Shown here: piece after piece, positions 8,227-60,935 of the stretch
How positions within the stretch are numbered: position 1 is the stretch's first letter
How the letters are laid out: every line of letters begins with the position of its first letter
NCBI RefSeq assembly: GCF_026914265.1
Contig: NC_069130.1
Location: 5,617,682 to 5,681,681, forward strand
Length of the DNA stretch: 64,000 nucleotides
Direction: 5' to 3'
Source: Mya arenaria
Taxonomy: Eukaryota; Mollusca; Bivalvia; Myida; Myidae
Program-made: the position numbers and the translations under genes
Notes under the pieces: model-generated
Databases searched by the model: none
Told to the model about the DNA's origin: nothing
Seen by the model: only the letters and a program-made list of their open reading frames with translations

Positions 8227-11200
8227 ATGCCATGGCAACCACTTCTGTTTGATGTACCTCCATCGAATATCTCGGACAACTGCAGCCAAGGGGTGCAGTG
8301 GATCTACCATGTGCTGCAGGACTGTGTGTATGATGCTCAAGGAATTGCATCTGAAATTCTGGGCCTGGCCTCAATTGTCACATGGATGATAGTCAGTATA
8401 CCGTATGTCTTTGTTTCTTTCTCAACAGTCGTAACATTGAGCCAGTATAACATGTTGTTTGTTTCTTTCTAAAGTGGTAACATGAGTGATAGTCAGTGTA
8501 AGTTACAAAGTTGTCTCTGTTTTGTTTTCCCAACAATCTTTTCATGGATGATCATCAGAATGATGAGGTCTTTGGTTTTTTCTCAGCAAATAAGCTTTGA
8601 TAATTTCAGTTAAGCCAGTTAAAGCATTAAAGGAGCATGAAACAGTTATTAAAAATCCTATCACAGAGTATCTAGGATTATGGTATTTAAATCCTTTTAT
8701 CATTTTCACTTTTATTAATCTTCATAAAATGTTTCATGTACAGTTTACGTACATGTTTACAAGCATATCATTTCCTGATGCTCATTTCTAAGACCTTTAA
8801 CAAAGAACTTTACCTGATACTTATTATCATAATTAAATATACTTAAAAATGGAATGATGTTCCAGGCAGATAAATAAAAAAAGGCTGATACATTTAAAGG
8901 GGCTAGACACCAGATGGTCCCAAAACCATCAAATACATTTTCCACAAAACAAGCCTAGTATTGTCAATACTAGCTAGTATGAAGCTGACAATACATCATA
9001 ATTTATTTTTTTTGGATGTCCCAGCTGAGTTTACCCGTTTAAAATATGGCATTAAAATGATGTTTCCCAGTTTATAATGTTTATGTTTAGCTTGTGAAAC
9101 ATGTGATTCTTACTTTTACTTACAAATACTTATTTTAAGTTATACTGACACTTTTTTTACTGACGCTTTTTTAAATTAACTGGGATTTAAGGGGTCAACA
9201 TACACAGTGAATTTTAAAATCTTTTTCCTGCAATTTTATTATCTGGTGTCTAGTCCCTTGAAGAGATCAAGGGAACTCCCAAGCTACCCAAACTCAAATC
9301 CTTTGTATGATATTTCCAGGCAGATGATTAAAAACTTTCGAGACATCAAAGGCATCCAGGGGATTTCCCTGCTGCTCATTCTCATGTGGACACTTGGGGA
9401 TACTGCAAATTTAGTTGGAGGCATTCTTACCAAGCAACTGCCACTACAGGTACAATTATACATTCCAATTGTGTTGTATAGGCTTGTATTTTATATACAG
9501 GTCCAATTTATGTGTACGCTTAAAGTGACACTCATATTTAAAATCAATACATACACAGGTATGACAAACATAAATTTTGAGTGATAAACCTTTATCTGCT
9601 TACTAAATAATGCATTTATTGAAAATATTAATTACTGATAACAAGATCGTAACCATGTATTTAATTGCAGAAAACTCACAAATATTAAATGACTTGTGGG
9701 TCTTAAAAGATTTACAGCGATCAACTCTTTCGCCTCATAAAGTAGAAATACTGTGTTTTCTGCACCTTCCTTTCAAATTTAACACAATATCCTTCATAAC
9801 AACCATTGTTTTCAATATTTATTCATCCATCATGGTAAATTAAAACAATTGTATTAATTGTGGTACATCTTATTTGGGAGTAAGAGTGCATCTTTAAGGG
9901 AAGAAAATCCTTAAGAAATTCACTTATAAATCTTACATTACAACAACCCTATGGTATGAGCTTTAATGCAATAATATTTTAACTAACTGAGGGTTGAGGG
10001 TGATTTATTTGCGTAATTTTACCCTAAAATAATCAATACTGAGAAAAATTAATGTTTTAAACTGGTACAAATGAAGATAATTGCAACCTAATGTAATCGG
10101 TCAATTTTTGTGTATTTCATGAAAGGCTACAACTTATTGGATTTCTGATATCCATGACAACACCTATGTGTTCTTGACATAGGTCAAAACAATCTCAGAA
10201 TTTTGGAGAAGGCTATAGTTTAGATATTATGGTATATGTATCAAGGAAACTTCATGCAATTCGTCTTTTTTCTCAGCCTTTTTTGCCAAACTAGAAAATT
10301 CTAACAATTTTGATTTTCCTGGTCAACCTTGCCATGTACTGAGTGTTTGCTGATCTAGAAATTCCTCATTATGTATTTGATCTTCCAGATTTACCTTGCT
10401 GTTTACTTTGTATTTGCCAAATTTCAAATTTGTCACAGTGTATTTAATTTTCCAGATCTACCTTGCTGTGCATTTTTGTGTTTGCCGTTCTAGAAATTCC
10501 TCACTATGTATTTGATTTTTCCAGATCTACCTTGCTGTGTATTTTGTGTTTGCCGATCTGGTGCTATTTGCCCAGTTCCTCTACTACAACTGCTACTGGA
10601 AGAAAAAGTATAAAGGTAATCTTCCCTGTTATGATATTTTCCAATGTTTTTTTTGGTTAAGCAAAATATGTTTGAAAAATATCTCTTGAGTAGTATACTT
10701 GTTGAATCCCTGACTTGTGTATGAAACCTTAACCTAGTGACTTAGTTGTTGTCACTGACATCCACCTTGCACCAACTCATACCTGTATGACGCAGATCAC
10801 AAATTTAACATGACTGTCTTGAAAATACTTTAAAGCTGCACTCTCACAGATATACCATTTTTACAACTTTTTTATTTTTTGTCTTGGAAAGAGCAAATTT
10901 TTGCGTAAATATCTGCAAACCAATGATATAAGATTGCTGACAAAAAATGAGATCGTAGATTTTTCTATTTCCGTTCAGAATTAATGTTTTATGGTTAAAC
11001 CGTTTACCATCGGTTTAAGAAAAATGCATAAAACATCAATTTTTGAACTTTAATATAAAAATAACTGTTTTCCATGTATTTTCACAAAATATGGCTCATT
11101 CCAAGACAAAAAAATAACCAAGTTGTCAAAACATTCAATCTGTGAGAGTGCAGCTTTAAACTTATTAAAGGAACTCATACCTGGGTGGTGATGCACAAAA

Positions 11201-14200
11201 CATAAGTATTTATCATGAAGAACATGATTGATATTTTTTCTTACATTTCACCAAAAAGCATGTGCGATGATGTTTACTGACGTCACAAAGCGCAGTAATT
11301 TTTAATCACTATTGATGTCAAATAGTTCCTCTAAAAATCATGTTTTGACAATTATTTAAAAAGTCTTGCATACTGAGGTATTTGATTGCGCTTTTTTGAA
11401 ATGGCATGATATACATTTCATAAACTATACAATTAAAGAAATAAGAAGTGGCCCGTTGTTGCGCATGAATCATCTTTCATGGGGGGAGTAAGACGGGTTT
11501 TTCCAGCACTGGTCACATTACCGGAAACACATGTTGCGGTATGCAAGAAAAAGTCATCCACACTTACCCATACAAGCATCAATTATCAGTGATCCAGCCA
11601 GGATTTGAAAAGGGCAGAGTGCAAGGTCAGAAAGAGCACTTTTGATGTGCATTGAATAAGCCTTAATGAGGCACTTAAAAGGGTCAATGTTCAATTCATA
11701 TTGTGTACCAGTATGTGTTCAACTGTTTGTAACAACTTTTAGTGCTAAAAGTTTGTTATGAATACCTTCAAATAGTTCATTATCATGAAAGAGGGCTCTG
11801 TCAAACTAAAGGGCACAACAGGGCATAGTGTTAAGACAGCAGGGAGCTGGAAAAGGGCAGCAGGGTGCACTCCGCTGCTTTTTAGGTCTACATGTAGCTG
11901 GAGCAAGGCATCATTATATATGACTACAGGCATAATAAATCCATAAGTCTGGCTTAAATGTTTTATTATCCCCCGCCTTGAAAAGGCGAGGGGATATAGT
12001 AATGGTAGGCGCGATTCCGTGCGTCTGTGCATGCGTGCGTCCGTGAGTCTGTCAGTCCCACCTTCATTTCTTTGCATCTCCTCTTACATTTCTCATGCGA
12101 TTTCTACCAAACTTTCACAGATTGATGATCATAAAGTGAAGCAGCGCATATTGTCGGGCTTTCCCGGTTCAACCATTTTTGAAAGAGTTATTGCCCTTTG
12201 CTTATTTTACATTTAAAATTGGTTTCTTCGCTACTCCTCTTACGTTTTTCATGCGATTTCTACCAAACTTTCACAGATTGATGATCATAAAGTGAAGCAG
12301 CGCATATAGTTGGCTGAGAAACTACCCATACCATTGATTGGCTTTCGGTACAAAAAATGCCCCCATGAGGCGGGGGATATAGCTGTCTGTGACCGCTCTT
12401 GTTTTATTTGAGTTATTCTCCTTGTTGGACTGAAAAAAATGACATCTGATTGTGGTACTTTTGTTTCTTCAATTCAAAATGAGTATTATGCCATTATTGA
12501 TTTTGTTGTCCCATGAACCTTTATCTATTTTTCCAGACTATGAACCAATCCCCTCTACCTCAACTAAGTCAGTCGGAGTTGGGACCAGCAATGGCAATGT
12601 ATCACAGATCGTATTGTGTATATCCGGTGCGATGACACTGTGTTTACACAAGTCCTTTCAGATATACAACAGTTCACACGAGTCTAGTCTCATACACCAG
12701 CCGGCTGGCAGATCTCTGTTATCCACTGATTTGAAGTACCATATACATATATTTCATGTAAGTGTTGATCATTTTATGTTATATAACAATTTCCTCTGTT
12801 TCTCATAAACTCTTACTCAAATATAGTATGTACACCATTAAAGTATCATACATTATGTTCCTAGAGAGGTGCCTAAATTTTTGATTTTAATTGCATCTGT
12901 TACCATTGTAAAAAGTACTCTTAACATAGACTAAGTTTTTCATTGTCAGTTCCTACAAAACATGATAGAGTCACTTTGATTACCTATGTTAGCATCAATG
13001 CCTTTTCAGTTGGAAAGTCAGTATCAACTTTTAGATGTTATCAATGTGTAGTGTTGTGTATTTGCAGAATTTAGAGGACGAGGTTGGTTATGGGATTGGT
13101 GTGGTATCTAGTGTTTTCTACACCGTTTCACGAGTTGGGCAGATGTTTAAAAATGTGAGTACCTAGTATCTATAAGTATCCCGATTAAAAAAATAGTTTA
13201 TTTAGCATTAACCAACCCACAATTTGAGGGGTGGGCAGGTAGATAGTTTGTTTTACTGCCTGAGCCCTTCACTTTGTAAGGAAAGACAAAAACGGAAAGG
13301 CTAGATAAGCTTTTTGGCTGGGTGTTATTGTAGGCGATCAGGTAACTCTAAAAAAGGTATTTTTCAAATTTTGATCTTATTAAGGTGAAAAATCATGTTA
13401 TTTTCTCTGCTCCTATATTCACTGGAATGAAGTATAAATTTCATAATATTACTAGTCCTATAGAATTTGTTCACCGATTTCTTGAACAAGCCAAAATGCC
13501 TTAATATGTTAATGTTATTGCCCCAATGTATAAACAAATAACAAAACCAAGATATCTCTACAAGCCATGATTCATATTCACTTATGTCTTCAGTCTGAGT
13601 TAGAGACTCGGACTCTAAAAGCAACATTTTATTTTTGTTTGAAAAAAACACCTATTCAATAAGCAATGATGGTAAATTGCTGTAACTGTAACACACAATC
13701 TGTTCTACAATCAAGCTTACATGTACATCTTTAGTCAACATTAGTTATATGATAGATATTTTTAAACATTTAAGAAGTCAGTTTAATTACTGAGTCTGAA
13801 TCTGAAACTGACTCAAGAAGTTAGTGAATATGGGGCCTAGGTTTGTGAGCTTGTGCTAAAGCCAGGGTAAGAGAACATATCACTCAATAGTCAGGTTTTG
13901 AAAAAATATTCTAATGGCGTCACAATTATGATGATGATGATGCCATAACTGTTTCTCAGATAGCTTTCTATAGCTTCACCGATAATAATGTTCAATTTTG
14001 ATGCCTGGTTACCTCATCAAATTTTGGTATCAGTTTAAAAAGAAATGCTGATTACTTATATGTAATGTAGGGTTTTAGCTGATGGGTTATGGAAGGGTGC
14101 TGCCCCCTGTCCTGTTTTGGGAGCATCCTTCTGCCCTCATCAAGACCAGCATGGGCACCTTTCTGCATTGATAGAATTAAATGCTAAAGCTGCCTAAGGC

Positions 14201-16933
14201 TGTCAATTTTATTTTTTTTATTAAATCTCATAATATGATAATACATAGTATTTTTACATATTTGACAGTTGAGACCTATTATCACTTCAATTCAGCATAA
14301 TCCTCAACATTTCTTGTCAAATTTATAGTGTTCAAGTTCTTCACAGCCCGGTACAATGTGCCCTTTTCTTTTTTAGCACCCTGTCTCTTTTCTGGAGCAC
14401 CAGGTCCATTTAAAAACCAGACTGAAACTATGAAATTAAATATGCATTAAACATAAAGTTATTTTTCGTTGAAGTGGATGGCACTTTGAAGGCATTTGTC
14501 ATTTACTGTGACAGCTCTTGTCTTTGTATATTCTTTATCTGTTAATCATAACCATTCAAATCATACTAAAATAAGATGGGGTGAACATGCATTTAGAATT
14601 CACATATTTGTGTATTGAAAACCATAGTTCTGATATTATATCAACATGAACATATTTGCATTCATCTATGATATAAAATATTGTAAATGAAGTCAATCTG
14701 CATGTATTTTTTTCTTAAGCCTAGGGGTATTAATGGACATTTAAATACATAATGTGCAAAACAAATCTCATTAATCATGTCATTAACAAAGAATTGTCAT
14801 CATTCATCTCCATCATCTATAAATAGGAAGCAACTCACCTTTATGTAATTATTGAAGCAAAGCTTGATGCCTCAGGCAAGTTAATTATTCAAATTGATTT
14901 CCGTAATTCAAATTTTAAGAATTATAGTTTGCATTTATATTTTTTGTACAAGTTTAAGTTACGATTTATAATGAAACTTGGTAAAAAATTCAGCAATAAT
15001 TCTGCATTCGGTATTTTGCATCTGTTTAAAAGGCATTTGAACAATAAAACACCCTATTTGAGTCGTTTAAATGTTTTTAAAGATTTACTCATGTATTAAG
15101 AAGTGTACTGAATTGAATTCGGATAAATAACTGAAAATGATTTTTTTTCATTTTCTAAACCATTTAGTCTGCAGGCCTGACACAAAAATTAATGCTAACA
15201 TTCTTAGTGTTTAGTGCGAAATGCCTCATGAACGCCTTTATAAAAGTCAGTGCACATGTGTGAGCTATTAGATTAAACTATTAGTGGTTGGCAATTATTT
15301 TGCTCCAATATGAAGGCAGTATTTTTCAAGATTTCCAAAACATTTTGTTTTTCAAAAATAAGCAGTCATTCATTTTTTATTTAACTCACGTAAAGCAAAA
15401 TATATAAAGAGTTGCTGGCCTATTAATAAGGTGGTATACACAATCAACAGCAGACTACTTATATTTTCTAAATGTTGTTAGTATTTTTGTATGCACATAC
15501 TATCAACCTTATTTCTAACAAATGGAAAATTGGCAGTTGTTGTTGTTATTAAATGAAAATTTGGAAGGTTTTGTAATATGCTGATGGCTTTTTGGTTGTC
15601 AGAGCTCTTCTAAATGATTAAATGTGAATCTGTCCAGTGATGACAGAGGCATTTCAAACCTTCACGTTAAAAATTAATAAAAACAGATGGAAAGCTTCTT
15701 GTACCAGATATACCTGTTAAAAAAAAATATGCTGGGCTCAGTAACTTTATTAAGAAATTTACTTTTAAAAATCCACAAGGTCATCATCAAGATGTTCATG
15801 TTTTCACATTTTATTTTGCTGACTGTTGTGGTAAACCAAATTTTGTTAGAGTATTTGCAGCAAGAAAGTCGCATGAGTGCAAAAGATTTTGTAATGATGG
15901 CTCTCACATTTAATTTTTGTGTAATCTGATAAGATAGGCTCTAATGTACATGACTGTGTATTTCAGTACAAACGCCAGTCCACGGACGGTCTGTCGATCA
16001 TGATGTTTATCCTGGCTGTGCTTGGTAATCTCACCTATGGTCTCTCTATCCTTGTGCGTCAGCTCGATGTCAACTACATACTTAAACACCTGCCGTGGCT
16101 CATCGGAAGTCTTGGAGTTATCTTCCTTGACCTCTCTGTATCCTTTATAGTTTTTCTTTCGGATTTGTTATCTTTTCTTCCAAGTTTAAAGTTTTTTGTA
16201 ATAAATATTTTGATCACAATATCATAAAAGTAGTTTCTTAGCTTTTTGGGAGAATATGTAAGTTAAGATATTATCATGGAATTGGTTTTTCATCATTTGA
16301 ACTAGTGTCATTATTCAGCAATTTGAATATTGTCCAGTGGCTGTATTCAATAATGACCCTAGAATTCACTTAATATTAAGAATAGAATCCAAGTGTGTTA
16401 ATTGAACTGCCAAAATAACTGGCCAATAGACAGAATGGAATCATTGAGGCGTGTCAAAGGACAAAGAAGAATGGTATTGAACCCCATAACTTGAGAACTG
16501 TTCAAGATTTTAATATAAAACTTTGTACACAGACATGGCCTTATACGCATGACTAGTCCCACAACTATGGCATTTATGGTTGTCCCTTGCTTAAGTTAGA
16601 GAGCTTTAGCATTCATTTGCAATATTTTTTTAAACAATAAGGTTGCAGTTATAGATTATTTTAAAATCACCACCACCACTATCATCAGCATTAACACCAT
16701 CATCAAACAACAACAACAACAACATTGTTATCCCTTGACTAGCCCCACAGTTATTAGTCCAGTTCAAGTACTACGAGAAGACTGATGATATGAACAGCCT
16801 CCTCAAACAGCCAATATTGAATGATACTGTACTGCCAGATGAGGTTGAGGTGTATGTTCCAGCTCATAGGGATCATTCTGCATCAGTCAACAGTATCACT
16901 ACGGCATCAGTCAACAGTTACACTATAAATTAA
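8227..16933 (+). CDS. SLC66A1: Lysosomal cationic amino acid transporter (PQ-loop, SLC66A1/PQLC2)
   Basis: Seven-helix PQ-loop protein that exports lysine and arginine from lysosomes; in mammals it also recruits the C9orf72 complex. Exons 8227-8402, 9320-9449, 10525-10615, 12537-12757, 13068-13154, 15967-16137 and 16751-16933 join in phase to 352 residues (human about 290). The first ATG in the exon was chosen as start. The first PQ motif is at residues 59-60 (SIPQMIK). At the second PQ motif the sequence reads SRVGQMFKN, so Pro is replaced by Gly (230-231). Exon 6 matches the family strongly: GNLTYGLSILV and LKHLPWLIGSLGVIFLDLS. The C-terminal tail has an acidic dileucine signal DMNSLL (305-310), the type that sorts to lysosomes. 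The exon 4 segment is a longer cytosolic loop than in human. Exon 3 has decoy partial copies upstream. Confidence 0.93.
8894..9262. mobile_element. MITE-like element, TTAAAGGGGCTAGACACC ends
   Basis: Left end TTAAAGGGGCTAGACACCAG is matched in inverted orientation by CTGGTGTCTAGTCCCTTGAA at the right end, about 370 bases apart. It lies in SLC66A1 intron 1, only about 60 bases before exon 2. There is no coding capacity. The ends resemble those of the elements at 45659-46163 and 44676-45066, so these are probably one superfamily. Confidence 0.7.
10322..10524 (+). repeat. Three partial copies of SLC66A1 exon 3 with its 3' splice site
   Basis: The start of exon 3 (CCAG then ATCTACCTTGCTGTG) is preceded by three degraded copies beginning at about 10322, 10389 and 10456, spaced 67-69 bases. 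Each pairs a CCAG-like acceptor and pyrimidine tract with the first 30-40 bases of the exon (for example ATCTACCTTGCTGTGCATTT). They then break off at a shared AATTCCTCA(T/C)TATGTATTTG sequence, which leads into the next acceptor. Only the copy at 10525 continues to a donor. Confidence 0.85.
10830..11159. mobile_element. Palindromic MITE, TTAAAGCTGCACTCTCACAG ends, copy 1
   Basis: The left end TTAAAGCTGCACTCTCACAG and the right end CTGTGAGAGTGCAGCTTTAA are perfect reverse complements 330 bases apart. The interior is also largely self-complementary (GTCTTGGAAAGAGCAAATTT against GGCTCATTCCAAGAC), so the element can fold into one long hairpin. It lies in SLC66A1 intron 3. Other copies are at 58667-59026 and, truncated, at 53472-53625. 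Confidence 0.85.
11955..12400. mobile_element. Non-autonomous element with CCCCCGCC hairpin ends
   Basis: Starts with CCCCCGCCTTGAAAAGGCGA followed by GGGGATATAG and ends with CCCCATGAGGCGGGGGATAT, so the termini are related hairpin-forming sequences. A GTGCGTCTGTGCATGCGTGC tract follows the left end. The middle contains a direct repeat of about 70 bases (around 12080 and 12237; shared TTTCTACCAAACTTTCACAG). The element at 38815-39240 has the same plan. It lies in SLC66A1 intron 3, shortly before exon 4. Confidence 0.6.
13155..15966 (+). other. SLC66A1 intron 5, mostly featureless
   Basis: A 2.8-kb AT-rich intron. Apart from a short ATGATGATGATG run near 13928, I see no exon, structured RNA or clear repeat. 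The open frames around 13364 and 15674-15929 lack homology and splice context. Confidence 0.5.
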
Positions 16934-18773: not shown

Positions 18774-18957
18774 GGGGTTTTTATGTTGAAATGAAATAGC
18801 CCTAAATAGTGAGTATGATTACTTATGAGAACATAGTTGTGATTGAACATGTGTGTGTGTGGAACTTTACATTGTACATTGAAATAGGCGGCGAGTTGTG
18901 TATGCAGAAGTGCGACAAAGTGCTATTTGTGAGCCCTCTTTACTCATCCTCGCCACC

Positions 18958-22523: not shown

Positions 22524-22557
<34 letters not shown>

Positions 22558-23627: not shown

Positions 23628-27877
<4,250 letters not shown>

Positions 27878-36100: not shown

Positions 36101-39100
36101 TTGCAAACACTGGTATACTTTTTCCATTGTAATACAGGGCATTTGTTTGGCACTGGATCGAAATGTGCTCAAGAACTCTTGGGTTTCGGTCCAACAAGGT
36201 TAGCCTCTCAAAAGAGTTCTGGTATCTACCAGGGAACACACATGATTTATACCAGCTTAAAGACAACTTTTTGTTATAGTTTGTATAAGCAAGTATAAAC
36301 TTACTTGTGCCTTGACATATGTTTCAGCCATTTCCATCTCGACCACTGCGGAGCCTTGCCTTACATGTCTGAGATGGTTGGTTTTGATGGTCCCATATAC
36401 ATGACACACCCAACCAAGGCCATCTGTCCTATACTGCTGGTAGGTCAGGATTGTGTGCTTGGCTGGAGTTTTGGAAAACTTTGAAGAGTTTCTTTTATCA
36501 TCTGTTCTGTAGCCATGTTATGATATTCATTTTCATTACACCAACATCAGATGTGCTCTAGGCTGAGATATGTTGATTTGTAGCTTAAGTTGTGCCAATG
36601 ACAGTGATGAATCTGAACTGTGACTGTAAGTAGAGTTGCAAATTCCATTGCGTGATGTGTATTAAAGGTCATGGGTATATACTTTTAAGATTACATGTAT
36701 TTACATTTCTTTTTTTTGTAAGACGTGTTTGATATGATGCAAAAGAAGACCTTTTTTACATGTTACTGTTCATATAAAGTTATTACTTGTCTCCCAGGTG
36801 AGGGAAAGTTAATATGTCTTTATTTAACAACCTTACATTGCAGGAGGATTATCGTAAGATCTCCGTTGAAAAGAAAGGGGAGACTAACTTCTTTACGTCG
36901 GAGATGATCAAAACATGCATGAAGAAAGTCAAAGCTGTTAACCTACATGAAGTTATACAGGTCAGACTATTCATCAGGAAATATTTTATGTGCTACATTT
37001 CATTTGTGGCATTTTGTAGAAACGTATAGAATGAAAGTAAACATCTGCATGAAGTTATAACAAATGAAGTTAAAAAGATTATTCTATAAGACTATTACTG
37101 CCGCTATGTTTCATGTCCGGTAATACATGTTGTTCACCATGTTACATCTAGGTTGACGAGGAGATGGAAATTAAAGCATACTACGCCGGCCACGTTCTGG
37201 GTGCGGCCATGTTTCACGTCAGAGTAGGTCAACAATCACTAGTGTACACAGTAAGTTGACAGTGTTTTCCTGATTTTCCATTTGTGTAATTTAAACTGAG
37301 TATTTTACCAGTACAGAAGGCTTTTTTATATACCAGATTCTGCCATAAGTTGTTGATATTCCGTAAGTGAGTGTCTTTAGGATGTATTATGGGTATACTA
37401 TAACATTAATTAGATTGAGATACTTAAGAATTTCAGGGACGTAGACATTTTGTCAAGAAAAAGGTTTTTTAATTTCTGTAATTTAAACCATTGAGTAAAT
37501 AACCTGTAGATGCCGCTTTTTTATACACCAGATTCCACTATAAGTTGTTGATATTTTTTAGGATGCATTATGTGTATTATATAACAGATTATGATACTGA
37601 CAAATTTCAAGTACATGGACATTTTAGCTGTATATTTATATATTTTAGTTTTTTTTACCAGGAAAAAAGCCTTTCAATCATTAACTTTGTACACTTACGC
37701 CATATATGCATACATATGCATTTGTTCAGTTATTAAATACAGAATATTAAAGAGTGAAGTATACATTCGTCTGTATTAAAACTTTCCCCTCCTTTAGGGC
37801 GACTACAACATGACTCCAGATCGTCACTTGGGGGCAGCATGGATCGACAAATGTCGACCCGATCTGCTAATCTCCGAGTCCACATATGCTACAACAATCC
37901 GTGAGTCCAAGCGATGCAGAGAAAGAGACTTTCTCAAGAAGGTTCATGACTGTGTGGGGAGAGGGGGGAAGGTGAGATTGCAACACTTGTGAAAATATGA
38001 CTTTCTATGCTCACTCATTAGAATAAATAGATATATCACTAAGATTTTAAAACTATCGATTATCATCCATTTATTCCACAAGGTTAGGAAATTTGTTTGT
38101 AAGTAAGCCTTCCGTGTATTTCATAATTAAGTTAATAAATGTTAGCCTAGCTGTTACTTGTTACCTCAGCATCTAGATGCTAACATGTGACATTAACCAT
38201 ACTCAGGTGCAGGTTTATTTGTTCAAGACCAGGCCAAGAAGTTGAGTGTCTAACTTGAGTCTTATTAACATATTGCTGGCTAGATACATGTGCCATGTTA
38301 AATCAGCGTCTCTATGCAAACCTGTTACTTCTATGGCCCCCAAGTGCTGATTCCTGTATTTGTCCTACGCCGAGCCAAGGAGCTGTGTATCTGACATGTG
38401 ACGTTAAATATTCCCAGGTGCTGATTCCCGTACTTTCCCTAGGCAGGGCTTGGGAACTGTGTATCTAACATATGATTTTTATGATTCCCAGGTGCTGATT
38501 CCCGTATTTGCGCTAGGCCGGCCCAGGAACTGTGTTTCTAACATGTGACATTTTACGATTCCCAGGTACTTATTCCCCTATTTGCGTTAGGCAGGGCCCA
38601 GGAACTGTGTTTCTAACATATGACTTATATGATTATCAGGTACTGATTCCTGTATTTGCGCTAGGCCGGGCCCAGGAGCTGTGTATTCTACTGGAGAGTT
38701 ACTGGGAGAGAATGAACCTCAACATTCCCATATACTTCAGCCTTGGACTTACAGAGAAGGTGCTCTTATGACATATCATTTATATCACTTTTAGCCTGTC
38801 TGTTTTTAGCTCTACTGGCCAAAGGCCAGAAGAGCTTATGCGATGGTAATGTGTACGTAGTATGTGCATCCGTGCGTTCGTGGGTCCGTGCGTCTGTAAA
38901 CAATTGCTTATGAACACGATAGTCTTCAGTTTTGATTGTATCTCGATGAAACTTGTACAGTATCTAGATATCCATTAGAGCTGGGTTCCTTTCGAAAACC
39001 AGCCAGATCCGCCCATGCATGCCTAGATTATGGCCATTGATAGTATAAAAACAATGCTATTGTGTAAACAATTGGTTGTGAACACGATACAGTCTTTAGT

Positions 39101-42100
39101 TTTGATTGTATCTCGATGAAACTTGTACAGTATCTAGATATCCATTAGAGCTCGGTTCGTTTCGAAAACCAGCCAGATCCGCCCATCAATGCCTAGATTA
39201 TGGGCCATGAAAGTTTTAAAGAAATGCTTTCTAGTTTTAGCCAAGTTTACATGTACATGTAAATTCAAGTCTAGAGTTAAGGGAGACAATTTGCAAGTCT
39301 AGGATTTTGAGAGACAATTTGCTTTTTGCTTCTGCAGTTGATTTTGTGAATTACTCTGCCTTGTTCTTGTTGAAAGCCCAAAGGCCATTTTTTAGCTTTA
39401 AATTCTGTAGTTTGCGCATTCATCTTAACAGAATTGGTTGTGAATGTTTAAGTTATGCACCTGGTGTCATTACTGGCCACACCCAGGGTTCACAGGTTTG
39501 GTAAACATAAATCTGGAAAGGTTTGAAAATCTTTTTGTGTGTTCGTGCATCCATCTCAGCACAATTGATTGTGAATGTTTGTTCAAATTGATCAATGTTG
39601 TCCTAGGATGCCCTTGACTTTGACCTTTTGACCAACTTTTTTAACTTTTAAAAGCTACAGAAATTTTTACTATGAGTACAGTTTTGAAAGCATTTTTTTT
39701 TTGTCAAATGACTTTTACTTGGCACATATTAAAATAGTTCATGCAACTAATCTGCTTACAATACTTTCTGGGCTCAGATGTTGAACGTGCTACGTTTTCA
39801 GGTAACCCAAACACAAAACATAAACTATATGTCTGTTGCCTTTTACCCATACATACATGCTCTGGATTGATATGACCACAAAAGCCATGCCAGTAGAGCA
39901 TAGGCCGTTTTAGGTCTCGTGTTATTTTATTATTTTATATCTACAGTCTATTGATCTTGTTTCGTTGAAATCCAACCAACTGTGGAACATAATTGTCGAA
40001 AAAGTATAAAACACCTACCTACCTACCAATATATCAAATTGTTGGTAGAGAAAAGCCAAAGAAACTGTCTATTATTTATGGCCTTATGCTGAAAGTACTT
40101 TTCACTTCAATAAAACACTGAAAACAAAGGGGCATTCCTGTAGTAAAAAATTAAAAAATAACCCCTGTTTAGAGAAGGCAAAGGCCAAATTGACAATGAA
40201 CTAATAAGACAAACATATAAATATGTACACAAATACAAACACCATGTACACATATACAAACACCATGTACACACATACAAACATCATGTACACACATACA
40301 AACATCATGTTAACACATACAAACACCATTTACACAAATACAAACACTATGTACACAAATACAAACACCATGTGCACATATACAAACACCATGTACACAA
40401 ATACAAACATCAATTACACAAATACAAACATCAATTACACAAATACAAACACCATGTACACATATACAAACACCACATGCACAAATACAAACACCATACA
40501 CACAAATACAAACACCACATACACAAATACAAACACCACCTGCACAAAAACAAACACCATATACACAAATACAAACACCACGTGCACAAAAACAAACACC
40601 ATATACACAAATACAAACACCATATACACAAAAACAAACACCATATACACAAATACAAACATCATGCACACAAATACAAACACCACATACACAAATACAA
40701 ACACCACATGCACAAATACAAACACCACATGCACAAATACAAACACAATATACACACATACAAACACCATGTACACAATTACAAACACCATATACACAAA
40801 TACAAACACCATATACACAAAAACAAACATCATGTACACAAATACAAACACCATGTACTCAAATACAAACACCACATACACAATTACAAACAACACATAC
40901 ACAAATACAAACAACACAAATACAAACAACACAAATACATATAAGATCATAGACGCCTCCATACGCAAAGTATGGAGTCATAATTCCCTCTTATATTATA
41001 TTTACATAAAACATTTTTCTGCCTGTCCATGATACATAAATGTAGACTGTGTACATGATATTTGCAGGCAAACCACTACTACAAGCTGTTTATCTCCTGG
41101 ACCAGTCAGAAAATCAAAAACACTTTCGTACAGAGAAACATGTTTGAGTTTAAACATATCAAGCCATTTGACAGGTAACTTTTCATTGTTTACATCTTGA
41201 TCACTGATAAAAGTTTATTAAAAACTTAATCTTTTATTAAAGTTTGCTATTCAAGGAAACAGGCATTAATTTAATGTATATTTTGTAAAGAGTTTAATTT
41301 CAAACATTTTCATAATTTTTCCATAATTAAATTTGCTCTTACCCATTTTATAGCTGTTCGGTTTTTCAAAGAAAACATGTTGAGGTATCATCATAGCCCA
41401 ATCACTCATCTTACTTTGAGGTCTGCATTATGTTAATGAATGCTTGTCAAAATTACGTCTTTAATCTTGTTAATTAATATTCCATGTCGTACAATTACAA
41501 GCCAGTGCCATAGCTGTGTTTGAAACACTGGGGACGTTACATGCTAGCCTCTCCATAAGTCAGATTTAATTTCACAAGATATATACATAACTATTTATGA
41601 ATGTTTCTCAACTTTCTCGTGAATATTTCAGGTCATACATTGACAACCCTGGTGCCATGGTTGTGTTTGCGACACCAGGAATGTTACATGCCAGCCTCTC
41701 CATTAGTTAATGTATGTTTCTCAACTATCTTGTGAATATTTCAGGTTTTACATTGACAACCCCGGGGCCATGGTTGTGTTTGCGACACCAGGGATGTTAC
41801 ATGCCAGCCTCTCCATTAGTTAATGTATGTTTCTCAACTATCTTGTGAATATTTCAGGTTGTACATTGACAACCCCGGGGCCATGGTTGGGTTTGCGACA
41901 CCAGGAATGTTACATGCCAGCCTCTCCATTAGTTAATGTATGTTTCTCAACTATCTTGTGAATATTTCAGGTCATACATTGACAACCCCGGGGCCATGGT
42001 TGTGTTTGCCACACCAGGGATGTTACATGCTGGGCTTTCCTTACAGGTCTTCAAGAAGTGGGCACCATGTGAAAATAATATGGTGAATATTCCTATATCA

Positions 42101-45100
42101 TTTATATATAAATCTCTATAAGTATGTAATCATGTTGTATTGATAACTTTGCTTTTTGCTTACATTCAATTTAAGTGATACTCAATATTCATTATGGTCA
42201 AAAACACCAATATTCTGTCGAATGATGACAGTTGAGAATTGTGAACAATGGTAGAGGAAGTTGGATCATAATGGGTTTTACAGGATTGTTGATAAAAGGA
42301 AGTTGTATAGAAGGAAAAGTGAGACTTTGAACACAGAGTACAAATAGACCATAATTTATAATTCCTTTTGAGACAGTTATATTTACAAAGTGCGACCTTT
42401 GGTTCTCTAAGCCTTCATTTTTACTGGAATATTTCTGCACATTCTATTGTTGCTAGCTGACTTACCCAACCCTGAAAAGTGAAGTACACATTTCCAGCGT
42501 ACCACAAGGTATGGCTTTAATGTCATGGAATCTGTGAGTGTATTGTTGTCGTTGTTACCAGGTGATCATGCCGGGCTACTGTGTGGCAGGGACGGTCGGA
42601 CACAAGGTCCTCAATGGCGTTAAACGGATAGAGTTTGAAAACAAACAACATGTATGTGTACTAATATATTGCTTATAATCATTTAAGTACAGAATTGGAC
42701 AAAATAAAAATAAAATTCTTTAGTGAAAATATCTGCTGTATTATTTATCGAGGGCAATAATCAGAGCAAAATTAAACGATTAACAAATGAATTTAATATT
42801 TATGGCTGGTTTCTTTACTGGTTTCTCCATTATGAACCATATTTCAATCCTTTCACCAGATACTCTTGTTATTTGACTGTATCCAAGACAGAGTTTTCCA
42901 CGGCACCAGGTGCCAAGACAAGCCAATACCAAAGCCTTGTGTTGCAAGCTAGGGTTGAGTAAAGAAACCATCATAAGTTAACAGTTATTTTGTACATTAT
43001 CACTGTTTACAGTATAATATACATGGATATCTGTCAAGTTGGTTTTAATACAGCCAAAATAATAATGTGCATTTCCCAAATTCAAGTTTTTATTGGCTTA
43101 TTTTCAATGTGTTTTTCGCAGGTGGATGTGAAACTGAAAGTGGAGTACATGTCATTTAGCGCTCATGCGGATGCCAAGGGAATCATGCAGCTAATCTCCT
43201 GGTGTGAGCCAAAAAATGTGCTGCTTGTTCATGGGGAGGCGGCCAAAATGGACTTCCTCAAGACAAAGATACAGGGGGAGTTTGGTATGACAAAGTTAAT
43301 TGTTAAATTGAATTTACATAGGAGCTAAAAAAACAAAGTATGCAGCTTGTGCACAAAGACAAAGATTCAGGGGGAGTTTGGTATGACTATGTTTATTGTT
43401 AAGTTGAATTTACATAGGAGCTGAAAAATGTGCTGCTTGTGCATGTTTAGGCAGCAAAAATGTACTCCTTCAAGACAAAGGAGATAGTACAGGGAGAGTT
43501 TGGTACAGGGAGAGTTTGGTACAGGGAGAGTTTGGTACAGGGAGAGTTTGGTCCAGGAAGAGTTTGGTACAGGGAGAGTTTGGTACAGGGAGAGTTTGGT
43601 ACAGGGAGAGTTTGGTACAGGGAGAGTTTGGTACAGGGAGAGTTTGGTCCAGGGAGAGTTTGGTACAGGGAGAGTTTGGTACAGGGAGAGTTTGGTACAG
43701 CAATGTTGATTGTAATTGAGTAATACTGAATGTTTTTATGTAGAAATAAGGAGCTGATTAAAGTGTTCCGTTCATGCACTGGGAAGTAGTGAAGACGGTT
43801 AACAACAATACCAAATATAGGGGTAGTTTTATACGGTGATCTTTAATGTGTAAATGTTTAATTGTATCTAGGAGCTGATAAGCATCCTACTGATTTAAAA
43901 GCTGTGTAAAAGACTTCCTCAAGACCAAAATATTGACAGGTTATTTGTGAGAAATTGATATTTTTAGCTCATGGTATTGTCAAAGTTTAGATGTCATTGT
44001 TGACGGCTTTAACCTTTCCCATGACTTAAAAAACATTAAAGATATTCAAATGAAACTTTTTACAAATGTTGCCAGAGACAATACACACATGTTTAGCAGC
44101 CCGATAAGCAAGGCATTCATATATATCAAGAAATGTCACTTGTTTGACTGTAAAACAGGAGAGCTTTGGCATTTGCCCTGCGATGTTCTCATTATATAAT
44201 AAATATGAGGCAGTAGATAAATGGCCCTTATGCAAAGGGAAGTAATGAAAATAGATTTTCGCAGGTCAAAATCATACAAAGGATTTGGTGGGTCAAATTA
44301 TTGTAATAGTAGATCTCAGTAGATACAGCTGAACACCGCTGGTTAGAACTCGCTTGGCTTCAACAAGATTTCTTCGAACCAACAAGGCAGACTGTTTCTC
44401 TATGAGAGCAATAAATGTCAACGAAAATGAACACTTGCAGAAGATACAATTTCAGGCTACTACATATGTTTGTAAATGTTTGTTTGTGTTATTTCAGGTA
44501 TTGACTGTTATAAACCAGCCAATGGGGAAACAGTTACCATAGAGACACAACATAATATTCCTGTTGATATTTCCCTAAATCTTCTCAAACGAGAAGCCTC
44601 ATTTAAAGGTAATGTGATCTTACTTTTTGTATTTTTTAAATTCACAATGCCACAAAGGACTGAGGTCATATCAACGTAAAGGGACTCGCTCATTTTTCAG
44701 ACCAAAAATCAGTTTATTAGTTTTCCTGGTTATGCGTATGAAAATACTCATTTTATCATTATTTTTCTCTATGATACTGAAATTTTGGTTTAAATGAGGG
44801 CTTAAACAAAAGATTTGCATATTTTGAAGATTTTTGGAATACATTGATAACATCATGTCAATCAACCAATCACACAACAATGAAATTGTTGAAACCCGTT
44901 ATTAACTGTTTTGAAAATAGTGGTCTTCAAAGACAATATTTGAGCTATCAATATTTGCTGAAGGGTTCCAGGGTTTGGTATTTTAGTTTTAACACTCCTT
45001 ATAATTTGCCACACTTTATTTTGTAATAAAATAGTGCATTTTATAACCCATGAGCAGGTCCCTTTAAGTTCTTAGGTTTTCTGTGACATTGACATTTTCC

Positions 45101-48100
45101 TCAACTGTATTATTTTATGTGCTGAAGAAGTTTTGCTTAATATAGACCACACATTATGAAATAGTTTTCAATCATCTTAAAAACATTTGAGATATGGTTT
45201 GTATATAAATTATGACATTTTAAAATTCTGCACTGTGATGAAAAAAACTTTTTTATGAATACACCTGCAAGGGTGGTAATTACTATGATTCTTATCCTTG
45301 TCCAGTGAATACATTCAGTCGTATTAGCTTTATTTTGCGGTCCAATCACTCAGATTCTACTCCACAGTCCAGTCAAAACACTCAGATTCTAGTCCACAAT
45401 CCAGTCAAAACACTCAGATTCTAGTCCACAATCCAGTCAAAACACTCAGATTCTAGTCCACAATCCAGTCAAAACACTCAGATTCTAGTCCACAATCCAG
45501 TCAAAACACTCAGATTCTAGTCCACAATCCAGTCAAAACACTCAGATTCTAGTCCTTAATTTAAGTTGAATCTAAGTTGCATTTTGATTACCTCCTGTGG
45601 GTCTTGTTTTGAAGAATTAAAACATGATTTCATTGACATACTTTATGCCTGCTTGTCATTTAAAGGGACTGTACACCAGATTGGCACCAAAAAAGTTTTT
45701 TTTCTGTAATGAATCTCAGGACAATTATCTAATAGAATGTATTATGCTTTGATATCATAATTGTAAAAAAAAAGTACCAAAATGTAAAAAAAATATTGTG
45801 TCGGAGACCGGGTTCAAACCCTTGTCGCCAAAATTGCAGTCCAGCATCGTATCCACTGAGCTATGAAGGCTTACTCTAATTGGGTGACATAATTAAGCTA
45901 TACACCTACCTCGGTAATATCACGTGATAACACCGACTAGCCACTCATGCATAAGGAATGAATTCTACCTGGTAGACATACCCAGTAATCTTTTTTAATG
46001 GAAAAATACATATAACTGCTAAACTTGAACAAATTGTAAACTATGTGGTACTTCAGTTAGTAAGTTTCAATGCATTGTACACATCGATGCCAAGTTTATG
46101 TCAGTTTTCGACAATTTTCTTCTTTTTTTCGCTATTTTATCATACGGAGTACAGCCCCTTTAAGCATATATAATGGACTCCAATATATGTTTATATATGC
46201 TTTCAATTTTTTTATCAATCAATCGATCTAGTTATACTAAAGGATTAACAGGAAAGGTCGATTATGCAGAACTTAGTTGAGGTTATCAACATTGTTAACG
46301 GCATCATTGTTAAATTTTAAAGGTGAACCTTTTTATTATGTGGTCATTTATTTAAATAAAGCAAGTACAGCTGAAACAGTTGTCTCAAGTCTTGTTAGAA
46401 ATACTGTCACAAGTGAATGTATGGAACTTCCAGAGTAGTAAAGTTTGAAAGTGAACAAAAATTACATTAACAATAAATGCTTCAACAAAGTTCTGACCAA
46501 TCTGCGCTTTTGTAATAATGAAGTGACAAACTGGCAAACTAACTTTATATAATTCAGATTTGACCTATCCAGACCCAAAGAAACATAGAGTTCTGCATGG
46601 TGCCCTACTAATGAGAGGAAATGTAAGTATGTGTTCATGTTAAGACCAGAATACCCAGGGTTAAGCAAGCCCTGCACTCATACACAGTTGGCAAAGCAGT
46701 CATCGAAAAATCGACTTGAATGAACAAGCCTTAATTCCTATACTTATATTTGGTATTATATTTTCATCAAGCCGTACTATATGAAATACAGATTTGGAGC
46801 AAGCTGGAAGGTATTTTATCAGTGCAGAGGTTGCAGGCTTTTGCTAATTTCAACCATTGGCAGAGGATGTTTTGATTATAAGTTTTACATGTCCATGCTT
46901 GTTACAATTATCCATGCCCAATGAATGTTTTAATCTAAAGATCAGAGGCTGCATTACAGAAGCAACTTAAGTTGAATTTTCACCTTACCCTCAAGTTTGA
47001 CAATTTAACTGTTAAAGAAAGAATGAGAATCTGAACTTTGGTGTTGAGATCTGTGATATTATGAAACATAAACCTTACATAATGCAAAATGTTTAAATCT
47101 TTTTACTCTTGCTTTCGTATCATTCATTCGCAATTTAGTATTGAAACAGGTACGGTTTGATCATTTCTGTTTCTTGTGTGTAGAAACTCCAGTTGGTCGA
47201 CGCCGACGAGGCTCTCAAGGACCTTGGAATCAAGGAACATAATCTACGTTTTACATCGACGCTTTATGTCGACGAGACAGGGCCCGCGCAGCAACTCACA
47301 GAGAAAGTATACCAGCTCTGTAAAAAGTATGTTTTTAAAATTACTATTAATTAATGACCTCAGATTTTTTTTTCAAATTTACACAATTTATCTGTTCTTA
47401 CTTCAACTATCAATGTTTACATGACTGAACTGGCCAAACAATTCACAGAATTTTTTTCACAATCTGTACTTACTTTTGACTATGAACGTACGTGACTTAG
47501 GGGCTGAGAAATTCACAATGACATTTTCACAATCTGTACTTAACTTTGATATGAACATCAACGGGACTGGGCCGGCTGAGCAATTCACAGAGAAAACATA
47601 CCTGCTATGTAAGAGGTATATTTGTCATGGAGCAATTTTGCAATAGGTTTGCGAGTACTTTTATGCCTAAGGATTATTTTTGTTTTTATATAGTATATGG
47701 GTGTTATGGATCTTTTACTGTCATGGATGTTTTGTCATTTCACAGGAAGGTGTCGGACCATCCTAGCCAGTTGTCATCGGATGGTTCAATATCGGTGTCA
47801 GACGTAATGATCACAATATCAGGAGAGGATGAAGAAACCAAATCCATCCTTGTGACTTGGTCCCACCAGGTATTGTTTGACTGTTTTTCGAAGAAAACGT
47901 GTCAAGGTAGTTTGATCATTGTCCATGTTGATGTCGAAGTGTGTTGTTTTTACCCTTTCTTAACGCAAAAACCATATCTGGTTTGGTATTCATACAACAT
48001 CTTAAGTCATTTCTTAACTAAGTCAATACTCCAAGATTTTCATAGTAAATCAAAAGAATGTATAAGTGTTTTTAACATGAAGGTATGTATTTTTAATCAA

Positions 48101-55700: not shown

Positions 55701-58700
55701 CACAACAAATGAACCCTAGGAGGTCAAATGAAGCAAAAGATACAAAATGAAGCCAAAGTACATGTACACAAATCTCCCTCCATGTAAAAGCCATGCAGTA
55801 TAATGTATCGGTATACAGGGATTTTTCACTCTCACCGTTATTGCTACCATTTTCATGACTTTCCGAATCTTCGTCGCGGAAACTTATGTGATATCTTGTC
55901 GGCCCCGCATGCACAGCAGCTAAGCCCTTAAGCTAACATGGGTACCAGGTTTGATTAAGATATTTCAAGTAAAGCAGTGAAATTGTCAGCCAGGAAAATA
56001 GTGATGAAAATATACAATAAGAAAAACAGGACGTGATTATTATTATGACAAACACCACAGGATTACAATGTTGATAATGTGTGTTCCCAAATGCAAGATG
56101 TGATTAACATATTATGTGAAATGATTAAGGCCAAGATAAAAAAACGTTTGTTCCCGATTTCACTGCCAAAAAAAGGGTCGGTAGGTAGGGCTATTTAAAT
56201 AACAAACAAAAAGAACTGAAACGATTCAAAAGTTGTGGTGACAGTTATTCATTTTCTCATTTAGAACAATCACCATTTTTGTCTTGGTCAATGTAAGCTA
56301 TAGAAAAGTATATTTATGCATCTGAACGATAACACTCTCACCCTAAATGAAAGTTTATCTGGTTGCATTTACAATTAGAGTCTGGTGCTTAAAGAAATAT
56401 GTTAGGACAGGAAAACAGAAACAAACATTTTTTGTGTGTTTCACCTTACTAATCAAAATGCACATATATAAAATGTAAATATACAGTCTTTCAACAGCAT
56501 GGGTCTGGATTGTCATGCAGGTTTCCGTCCAACCAAGATGCCACACAACAATATTTAAAACAATACTTTTGGAAGTGAACAGAGTAACTTTGAGCAGTAT
56601 AACATCTGGCAAACAATGTGTAAAACAAAAGATCATTGCAGGGGAGATGAACAATGTGAATGAATTTAAATAAGGTCAAATGCACTCAAACAAAACAACA
56701 TCAAATTACAAGTTTTAATATTGAGCATTGTTTCCTGGTGTTTGTAAAGTGATGCCCTACAATATCATACACAGGCCAATTACCTTCAACTAACTATCGA
56801 TGTGTCTATCATGCCAAAGGATTCATTTCTATTCTGCAATATTGTAAAGGCTGTATATCTTTTACATATTTCCTTCTCATTCTTTAGTTAAACTTAAGAT
56901 CTGATTTGCAGACATGCAACTACAGCCATATAAAGGGTTGTAACTCACTATCACCATTACTTTAATCAAGGGCAGACAATAAAAGACTCAACCAAAGGGT
57001 TTTAACTTGTGATATAGAAAATTTAATAAAAAGGTTTTAACTTGTGAAAATCGAAGATTTAACAAAAGGGTTTTAACTTGTGATTGCATCATTCATTGAA
57101 CAAATCAAAATACTACCATAGGGTGAAAACTTATTATATTACCATTATTTAAAGAGAAGAAAGATAACTATGAAGTCAACTCAAGGGAGAAAACTCATAA
57201 CTAAACATCCGCACAGCGGTTACTTCTGTCTGCGTTCAGGTATTCACTGATACCATTTTTTTTATACACATTTAAGAATGTGGAAGCAGAGATCATCTCA
57301 GCTCATCAAGGGAGATCACTGCGTAGGAGATAGTATATTGCTGTGTATTAAACAACTCAAAGGGGGATAATAAGAAATGAAAACCAAGTTCACCCACCTC
57401 TGCACTAGCCTCCTCCAGTTTTCGAGCCTCAGCCATCTCCTCCGCATCGTTCCGCTCATCCTCTGTGTATTCCTCCTTGTCGAGGCGTTCCAGTTTGCGG
57501 AGGGCAATGAGAACCTCCACACGATAATCATCCTCTTCAGCTGCTGGGTTTTCTGTGGTGTGGAAACGGTGGTGGGTAAGTTTGATTGAATTTGGAGCCA
57601 TATATGTAAAATAGTGATCACACTGTATATCACAGAACCATACACTCAGAGTCTCTATTATACACTTATTAAATAGCTTGTCGGTCAATAGTCAAAACTA
57701 TTAAGGTAGGCAAATGGTTTGACTTATAATTAATGGACAAGATGTTTAATTCTTGCTTTAATATATGACAGTAGATTTTTTTTAAATTATTTTTGATGAT
57801 ATGCATATGATATTTAATCTTGAAAGTTCCAAGGTTGTGTTGAAAAGTGTATTGAGAACCGGCAAATACAACTGTACATGATATTTCAGAATAACTTTCA
57901 CTGTAGGCAAATTGTAATCAAACACCTGTCTCAAAACGTAAAGCATAAAGCATGTTATTTTGAAGCACAGTAAGGTATCCAGAATCATTGCATTTAGACT
58001 ACCTTTCTTGCAGCATCTTTCAAAAAATACCTTAGTTTATAGAATCACTAAATACTAAGAGACGACTTCAAAAACATACTAACTTATATAAAAAGTCTAG
58101 TAAGGCCTGGTATAAAATAAAATTGACCTCATTTAGTCTAACTAATTTTGCAGCAATCTTTAAACCAAAAATTGAATAAAATCTTTATTTATGTTGGCAA
58201 ATATGACATGTGATGAAAATAATCATATATGAGGAACCATTGATTCAACATTTACGAAACCTGTTACTGAAATTTAATATGAAGTGCTTACACATTGTCA
58301 TTGTAAACATCTGTACAATGTTTCTGTTAATATCTGTGATTACGATGCCGCACCATAGAATAAAAACGATGCCGCTCCATGAACAAAGCTTTTAAACTAC
58401 TTCAAACTTAAACAAACATTACCTGAGAGGACCAGAGCTCTCAAAAGGGGAATAACTGCGAGTTTCTTTACCTCCTTCACATCTGTCAGGTTATTTCCCC
58501 TGAAAATAGATTTTTTTTAAACAAGCAAATAATTTCCCTCCCATAATACGAAAAATGGTCCTTTTTTTTTATGTCATTCAAATTCATTTTGATGGTGGAA
58601 CTTAGACTGTTGCAGTCGAGGCAGAATGCATAATAAGCTTGTTTAATGTATTTCATGCAAATTTACTTAAAGCTCCACTCTCACAGATTGAACGTTTTGA

Positions 58701-60768
58701 CAATGTTTTTATTTTTTGTCTTGGAACGAGCAAATTTTTGCGTAAATATCTGCAAACCAATGATAAAAGACTGCTGACAAAAGATCAGATGACCAGCTTT
58801 TCATATTTCCGTCCCAAAAATGATGTTTTATGCATTTTTATTAAACCGTTAGTAACGGTTTAAGCCATAAAGTATTAAATTTGGAATGGAAATATGAAAA
58901 TCTGCGATCTGATCTTTCGTCAGCAGTCTTTCATCACTGGTTAGCAGATATTTACGCAAAAAAATTCTAATTCCAAGACAAAAAATAAAAAAATTGTCAA
59001 AACAGTAAATCTGTGAGAGTGCAGCTAGAAGAGATATTAAAAAAAATTCAATGAAGGCAATGTCAAATGAGAATTCTAGAAAATCATTTAAATGGTCCAA
59101 ATACCAGTATTAAAAATATCAGTATGAATAAAGCAGCAGAAAATTCATATATAGTATAAATCTGAAAATAAAAATAGAACCTTCATATCACTTTAAAACA
59201 TAAAATTAGAAAATACTGTATTTGAGGGCATCTTATTAGTCAATATTTTCAAACTTTTCCTTTGTTCCTGATTGTTGGCATACATGTACATTCAGACGGG
59301 CGATCTTTTCAAAGAGAATATGACAAAAGACAGTTACAAAACAAACTTAAAGTGTAAAATCTATTTCACTTTGCCTACTCTGACCAACAGCGATGTTTGA
59401 GTTTCAAATACTGAGAAATATTAATTATAAAAAGCGATCATATGATATGGGCATACATAAAATTGCCCTAATATTTATTATCTTATCTCGAAGTGAGTAA
59501 AGCTACATCAAACCATACGAAACACAAATATACTTGGGTTATCTGCATAAGCAAACACTAAATTTTCCACATATTGGCCAAAATTGAAGTATTTGTTAAG
59601 AGCCAGGAAGTTGTAAGTACTGGCAATTTGGACAAAATCCTTATTTTTGTTCAAAAAGGAAACAAATCTCTAAAAACATACTTGATGTTTAATAACATGG
59701 GTTCAGATTAAATCAGCGTTCAATGTGTGAAATTTTGTTGATAAAGACAGAAATACAAGTTGTCTCTTTGTTGTGCGAGTTTCTAAGCCAATACTTGAAA
59801 TTATTTTGTTCAGAAATACTTAAAAGAAAAGAAATGTTAAGTGTCGACCAGGATCTTTTAATGGTTTTCATTAAGAGTTTACAAATAAAAAGATCTTCAC
59901 AGTCGTGTCATAACATTCATAGGATATCTGAAATAACAAAAATGTACTGTCTCATGAAATATGAACAGGATATTTCACGACAATTGTGTTACATAACACA
60001 AAGACAATATCATTTCTAATATAAAGGGTGTTTCATGTTTTAGGCATTTTGAGTTTAAAAAATCAGTCTATATTAACATACATGTACTAGCATCCTCAGT
60101 AAGTGTCACTTGATAGGTCAACAATTAAGGAACTCTGAGGGCCATATGACATTATAAGGACCGGCCATTCAGCCACCGAAGGTGTATATGGTACGAGGCA
60201 TAAGCCGAGGTCTATTCACCTTCAGGGGCTGACTGGCTGGTCCTTACAATGCCATATGGCCTGAAGTTGTGTGTTATATCCCTTATATTATACCTTTTCA
60301 TGTGTTTTATTGAACTAAGCAATTGATGTTTACTTACAATAATTGTTCGTCGTTATAAGCTTAAAAAGGATAAGAAATAATAGTTTAATGTAGTTTTCAG
60401 AAAAGCGCACCAAATTGTATGTAAACCTAACATAATATATCTGAAACAAGTTTGTGTCCCAACCAGTGAGCAGTGACATTAAATGCTTTGGACGTGAGAG
60501 CAGGCAGTGAAAAATATTAAATCGATATTATCACTGTTTGAAACAGTGAAATATCTTTTTTATTTCACTGATAAATCTATAAATCCATCACAAACATATA
60601 CAGCAAATCCTAAATCTACACAGTTCATTACCTCATATTGATGTACTGCAGCATTTTGTTCTCCTCAGAGAAACCATCCAGCTGGGTGAGCTGGTTTTCT
60701 CGGAGGTGACACGTCGTCATCCCGGTAAGCTGCTCCAAGCCTTCAAGCTGCTTGATCATGTTTGCTCC
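49775..60768 (-). CDS. LRRC23: LRRC23, radial-spoke leucine-rich-repeat protein (3' exons)
   Basis: Component of the radial spoke of motile cilia and sperm flagella in mammals. Minus-strand exons 60768-60632, 58499-58423, 57552-57398 and 53869-53831 join in phase, followed by one of two terminal exons (52055-52017 or 49819-49775). The exons encode the last leucine-rich repeats (GLEQLTGMTTCHLRENQ, then LQYINMRGNNLTDV, then LLRALVLSENP). A C-terminal cap follows (RKLERLDKEEYTEDER), matching human LQYLNLRGN, ALVLLDNP and LERLDKEFYEEEER. Then comes a variable acidic tail. The upstream exons with the first repeats lie beyond 64000. The intron to the right contains a decayed copy of the 60768-60632 exon and a 3-kb satellite. 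Confidence 0.9.
53472..53625. mobile_element. Truncated MITE, TTAAAGCTGCACTCT family, copy 2
   Basis: TTAAAGCTGCACTCTTACAG and GATATAAGATTGCTGATTAA match the left half of the 10830-11159 element. The right half is missing; a GCAAGCCC-family fragment follows directly. Confidence 0.65.
53636..53715. repeat. Dispersed repeat, GCAAGCCCTGCA family, fragment
   Basis: CCGGGCTTGCTCAAAATCTG and GCAAGCCCACTAGCATTGCA resemble the centre of copy 2 (3895-4060). It abuts the truncated MITE, so one may have inserted into the other. Confidence 0.4.
58667..59026. mobile_element. Palindromic MITE, TTAAAGCTGCACTCT family, copy 3
   Basis: About 360 bases that fold almost end to end. The centre is AAACCGTTAGTAACGGTTT. 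The arms pair over TTTTTGCGTAAATATCTGCA and TGCAGATATTTACGCAAAAA-like sequence, out to CACTCTCACAGATTGAAC / TAAATCTGTGAGAGTGCAGC. It lies in an LRRC23 intron. It is the most symmetrical of the three copies. Confidence 0.88.
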
Positions 60769-60782
60769 CTGGAATTATGGGT

Positions 60783-60935
60783 AATTTTCAATAAGTGTCA
60801 TGTTATATACATGTAGAGAAAAATCCAGCTGGGTGAGTTGTTTTTTCTCCAAGGGGACATGTCATCATTTCGGCAAGTTGCTCCAAGCCTTCAAGATGCT
60901 TGATCATATTTGCTCCATTGAAATATGGGTAAGTT
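60783..60935 (-). pseudogene. Decayed tandem copy of the LRRC23 exon at 60632-60768
   Basis: Immediately upstream (in gene direction) of the real exon. It keeps GGAGCAAATATGATCAAGCA, CTTGAAGGCTTGGAGCAACT and ACTCACCCAGCTGGAT with many changes and indels. The acceptor CCAG of the real exon is CAAT here. The copy includes the flanking intron (ACCCATATTTC against ACCCATAATTCC), so the duplication covered acceptor and exon. It should not be spliced in. Confidence 0.85.

Follow-up and report, generated by a model that had tools for sequence, protein, structure and literature searches.

Tandem duplications across exon-intron junctions in a 64-kb window of the Mya arenaria genome, and their resemblance to amphioxus mirages

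The window analyzed in the present study is a 64-kb stretch of the genome of Mya arenaria (18 contigs, 1.216 Gb) at C9:5617682-5681681, and feature positions below are those of the window. Four genes were confirmed in it, namely SLC66A1 (8227..16150, plus strand, 5 exons mapped), LZIC (23828..27877, plus strand, 5 exons mapped), INTS11 (34600..47870, plus strand, 15 exons mapped as E1-E15, the terminal exons of the gene being incompletely mapped) and LRRC23 (57398..60768, minus strand, 3 exons mapped inside the window). INTS11 was located through matches to solved Integrator structures and the other three genes by tblastn with human proteins as queries; SLC66A1 was additionally backed by PQ-loop Pfam matches. 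Three more exon matches of LRRC23 lie just outside the window and are not among the tested edges. Splice sites were assigned by hand from reading frame and consensus, which gave 50 edges, and then 52 with one extra INTS11 exon. The INTS11 exon numbers 9, 11, 13 and 16 used here are those of the initial annotation; the first exons of this gene were unmapped in our follow-up. An edge was counted as duplicated if at least 6 bases on each side of the junction fall in a tandem duplication. Duplications were detected with our own offset scan in place of a BLAST self-comparison, which was dropped because it missed short periods (a 41-bp case in a CCT-family gene was not listed).

We found that 7 of the 52 mapped edges, four acceptors and three donors, sit in local tandem duplication. 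In SLC66A1, the acceptor of exon 3 (10525-10615) lies in an array at about 10282..10559 (plus strand) with a period of 67-69 bp, consisting of three decoys and the real edge; the decoys are 79-89% identical to it and two of the three keep the AG. The donor array of LZIC exon 2 (24781..25952, plus strand) has about 40 copies of a 29-bp unit, takes in 6 exon bases before the real donor (after 24786) and keeps the GT in 30 of 39 decoys. Four of the seven arrays belong to one gene, INTS11, all on the plus strand. At its exon 9 (38640-38759), an acceptor array at 38152..38690 with a 74-bp unit contains five decoys, four of them with AG and three scoring no more than 1 bit under the real site. The acceptor array of exon 11 (41971-42082) lies at 41422..42043 and has a 113-bp unit and four decoys, of which three keep the AG, with decoy scores of 10.6-11.0 against 11.5 for the real site; a genome-wide search, in which common words are skipped, found no second locus for it. 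At the donor of exon 13 (43122-43284), the array (43205..43719) has long copies whose junctions fall near 43380 and 43502, at 96 and about 218 bp from the real one; 16-bp units follow, and GT is kept in all decoys tested. The donor of exon 16 (47184-47326) has a single old copy 289 bp on (duplication 47269..47623, junction after 47615), which is 79% identical and keeps the GT. Finally, the acceptor (60768) of the LRRC23 exon 60632-60768 is duplicated once on the minus strand (60667..60942), the copy lying 148 bp upstream with 85% identity and without the AG. The donor of SLC66A1 exon 1 (8402) is a possible but weak eighth case. The seven edges score 27-434 in the offset scan, and a 10-kb stretch that was dinucleotide-shuffled three times gave no score of 18 or more; therefore the copies are not chance matches.

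All seven exons for which the initial annotation had reported partial tandem copies of one edge were thus recovered. Its statement that every copy lies on the intron side and takes in a splice site also holds, although this follows from the definition, because the exon stays intact only if the copy is on its intron side. Among the 14 genic arrays of the window, 7 include an edge, whereas 2.6-2.9 are expected from random placement without covering an exon (P 0.004-0.008); these P values are post hoc, as the pattern was first spotted in the same window. Before the offset scan was introduced, a permutation for the window had given 7 of 13 arrays with an edge against 1.6-3.4 expected (P 0.0004-0.03); the figures above replace these. 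At the level of positions, no excess at edges was seen in the window: the coverage was 13.5% for edges (7/52), 9.2-10.6% for intron 1-60 bp away and 13.7-17.9% for intron farther away, and equal-sized random draws from window introns averaged 6.0-7.9 matches (P of 7 or more, 0.39-0.69). Point coverage over the whole window, with 5/50 edges against 11% of positions at 30/40, depends mostly on a few long arrays and was therefore discarded. If an error of 20 bp is allowed, the count of duplicated edges rises to 9/52. In window exon interiors, 317 of 2814 positions are in tandem duplication, a count to which the seven arrays contribute their exonic portions.

As an independent sample we used 180 edges from 18 gene pieces of the same genome, all from conserved housekeeping genes picked without regard to repeats. 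A profile search with the chaperonin domain PF00118 gave about 14 places, of which nine multi-exon genes with 122 edges were taken; we presume these to be eight CCT-like genes and one HSP60-like gene. Among the places passed over, C10:65.9M is a near-copy, C11:32.5M and C9:57.1M are long and single-frame, and the other two each show a pair of weak matches. Another 58 edges came from one Sec1-family gene, presumably VPS45-like, and from pieces of four aminoacyl-tRNA-synthetase loci. The Sec1 profile had 19 matches; one gene (on C3) was used, with five of its six matches as exons, the sixth being omitted for the stops it contains. The tRNA-synthetase matches fell in about 10 places, four of which were used, in eight pieces, one match being shortened by hand. 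Matches to the LRR_8 profile were mostly long single-frame and were not used. Edges in the sample were called automatically; some calls are weak, and some exons were missed.

Tandem duplication was found at 4 of the 180 sample edges (2.2%): a CCT-family donor (19 bp, 4 copies), a CCT-family acceptor (41 bp, 2 copies), an acceptor of an aminoacyl-tRNA-synthetase that we take to be valyl-type (58 bp, 10 decoys) and, as a marginal case, a CCT-family donor (CCT_C3). Allowing an error of 20 bp raises the count to 8/180. Coverage of sample introns was 2.6% at 1-15 bp from the edge, 3.5% at 16-30 bp, 3.6% at 31-60 bp, 8.6% at 121-250 bp and 40% beyond 500 bp, and exon interiors were almost without tandem duplication (113 of 12586 positions, 0.9%). 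Random draws within 100 bp of a sample edge averaged 7.2 matches (P of 4 or fewer, 0.14), those within 250 bp 11.8 (P 0.008) and those from all intron 41.3. At the level of arrays, 6 of 48 in the sample include an edge, where random placement predicts 4.2-6.5; for the CCT-family genes alone the figures are 4 of 32 and 2.8-4.3. In these array-level tests, one array covering a whole exon was excluded, and the weak array CCT_C1 was counted although it is not counted as an edge match. Our results show that arrays in the sample are scarce around exons and that the junction does not stand out from its surroundings; a general attraction of arrays to exon edges was not found at this sample size. Thus, the proposal that edge copies exceed what intronic repeats would give did not survive in the 180-edge sample, where random placement of intronic repeats would yield them about as often, and placement at edges beyond random stands only for the window, at the array level and post hoc. 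The difference between the window and the sample (7/52 against 4/180 edges, Fisher P 0.003) would be explained most simply by the earlier reader's choice of a striking window, but gene classes or regions may also differ in this respect.

The decoys are 71-97% identical to their edges. Arrays of decoy splice sites, as claimed initially, are present in that AG or GT is kept in 55 of 68 decoy rows of the window, although the LRRC23 copy is an exception. Two INTS11 rows were apparently counted twice in overlapping runs, and the corrected window figure would be 53/66. Including three arrays from other genes, the dinucleotide is kept in 67 of 82 rows and lost in 15, which is probably about what drift would leave. 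Many decoys match the real site in score, and therefore site strength does not assure exact splicing. When the exon was extended to the decoy, a stop was met at every one of 14 acceptor positions; just 7 of these coincided with an AG, the remaining ones being off by a few bases or decayed; a stop was also met at the INTS11 43284 donor and at a CCT-family donor. However, the extension at the LZIC donor is open for 215 codons, and thus early stops are not a general safeguard.

The initial annotation knew of no described system with this signature. Structures of this kind have, however, already been named mirages in amphioxus, where two reports describe tandem duplications that resemble minisatellites and span an intron-exon boundary, at acceptor or donor, with units of 10-160 bp and AG or GT in many, not all, copies (PMC3087553, PMC3902484). 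The genes concerned are Adh3 and the globins Gb6 and Gb9, to which PMC3902484 adds TnC and PGBD5, and the mirages are reported to leave splicing undisturbed (PMC3087553, PMC3902484). The repeats of Mya arenaria likewise span the exon-intron boundary (7/52 window edges), affect acceptors (four) as well as donors (three) and keep AG or GT in many but not all copies (55/68 in the window, 67/82 with outside arrays). They differ in belonging to another phylum and in including one array of about 40 copies, and were observed in one assembly. A human counterpart, reported by Turri (1995) as cited in PMC4526556, is the donor minisatellite of IFI6 (6-16), whose repeat units serve as extra splice donors. 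There, too, tandem units bring extra donors, but these are used in transcripts, whereas the decoys of Mya arenaria are putative. In a narrow literature search with amphioxus, mollusc and bivalve-intron terms, no mollusc case of mirages was found. What is new here is the bivalve host and a first rough rate; the structure itself is already published. Our results suggest that arrays of decoy splice sites are apparently not confined to amphioxus. Mirages may even be general in minisatellite-rich animal genomes and not a cephalochordate oddity, occurring at about 2% of edges here and concentrated in certain regions or genes, of which the window would be one example, although we offer this generalization tentatively and rather doubt it ourselves. 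In any case, the arrays provide natural experiments on how splicing settles on the exon-proximal site when nearly identical sites lie close by.

The explanation that we consider quite probable is that the arrays are mirages in this sense, that is, ordinary tandem duplications or minisatellites that straddle one exon-intron junction by chance and are tolerated through exon-proximal site use. Tandem duplications and minisatellites are common in the introns of this genome, and some would by chance cross one junction; the extra copies of such a segment would become intronic. Correct mRNA would still arise from the copy adjoining the remaining exon, as long as exon definition directs the spliceosome to the exon-proximal site. 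Such a duplication would then be nearly neutral and could persist, while the array may lengthen or shorten through slippage or unequal exchange, and decay. Duplications within exons would be removed, which agrees with the near absence of duplication from sample exon interiors (113/12586); this near absence also supports the earlier suggestion that selection leaves mainly edge-straddling duplications. We favor this explanation because the same structure occurs in genes chosen without regard to repeats, because the edge rate in the sample (4/180) resembles that of intron 1-60 bp away (2.6-3.6%), because acceptors and donors are both affected and because amphioxus mirages share the anatomy. The exon share of the unit, 0.21-0.89 in ten cases, points the same way in showing no departure from uniform (KS P 0.41), with the small n and array ends set by hand. 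On the other hand, the edge arrays of the window are above expectation (7/14) and above the sample, many decoys are as strong as the real site, and the LZIC extension is open; these observations count against it.

One alternative, put forward in the initial annotation with breaks or stalled forks as causes, to which R-loops may be added, is that splice sites under transcription are targeted by a mutational process that duplicates exon edges. The array-level excess in the window, and a sixfold higher rate of duplication at its edges than at those of the sample, would fit such a process, but the 18 other gene pieces show no edge excess over adjacent intron and none at the array level, and the exon share of the unit is not anchored on the splice site. 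Thus, at this sample size a splice-site-targeted process gains no support, and we consider it improbable. An apparent excess of old edge arrays could instead be a matter of visibility, if purifying selection on one copy keeps an edge duplication recognizable longer than a duplication in which both copies are free to diverge. In accordance with this, all seven window edges are covered by segments of less than 90% identity and only two by segments of at least 90%; however, window intron interiors lean likewise (0.134 against 0.089), and sample edges are not in excess in either class (3/180 against 0.224; 2/180 against 0.145), which makes this explanation rather unlikely.

The concentration of four of the seven arrays in INTS11, and the many decoys equal to the real site in score, might also suggest that the arrays are maintained because they do something useful, for instance titrate splice sites, cause intron retention or control INTS11 at the transcript level. 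The loss of AG or GT in 15/82 rows, the unit lengths that vary between genes and the stops met on extension at the acceptors and at the two donors mentioned above argue against it, and we regard such a function as very improbable. Intron gain from tandem duplication of sequence bearing splice signals has been reported (Rogers 1989 and Hellsten 2011, as cited in PMC4974935 and PMC2812944). In that model new introns arise, whereas the copies of Mya arenaria lie within existing introns and thus are not gains of this kind. Zhuo 2007 reportedly also dealt with intron gain from tandem duplication. The birth of introns through duplication of an exonic AGGT segment would be in line with the array-bearing acceptors INTS11 38640 and 41971, which read AG followed by GT across the junction, and amphioxus mirages have been proposed as an intron source in the same reports (PMC3087553, PMC3902484). 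Nevertheless, this origin seems hardly credible here: the copies carry the sequence of the existing intron beyond the junction, and they sit inside that intron.

In the independent genes, 18 gene pieces from elsewhere in the genome that were picked regardless of repeats, about 40% of the intron positions more than 500 bp from an exon edge were covered by tandem arrays, versus 3-4% of those within 60 bp. Unlike in these genes, the gradient of array cover with distance was almost missing in the window. A weak candidate for donor-side duplication was also found at SLC66A1 exon 1 (8363-8588), and this is possibly the eighth edge duplication of the window.

Other repeats lie within introns. The INTS11 introns contain a 21-bp array (40226-40939), a 32-bp array (45340-45555), and a 170-bp duplication (38895-39208), none of which is in contact with a mapped exon. 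A 52-bp satellite of about 58 copies (60979-63994) is located between LRRC23 exons and reaches the window end; beyond it, shortly past that end, the adjoining sequence has three more LRRC23 exon matches. LZIC intron 1 holds a dispersed repeat: a segment of about 160 bp (24252-24418) that recurs with 70-79% identity at no fewer than 39 other genomic places, among the 40 candidates, out of 164, that were scored.

The chaperonin- and tRNA-synthetase-profile searches gave four pairs of gene copies with corresponding exon matches, on contigs C10 (65.90M) and C13 (57.38M), C11 (34.87M) and C16 (13.97M), C8 (35.85M and 37.84M), and C17 (2.94M and 3.40M). These are either unmerged haplotypes or recent duplications, and are suited to a comparison of array lengths. 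Furthermore, one C-terminal Sec1 segment (profile positions about 518-554) was matched three times on contig C4 (12760948, 12768665, and 12776450), at a spacing of 7.7-7.8 kb, perhaps representing tandem copies of the gene end or of an exon.
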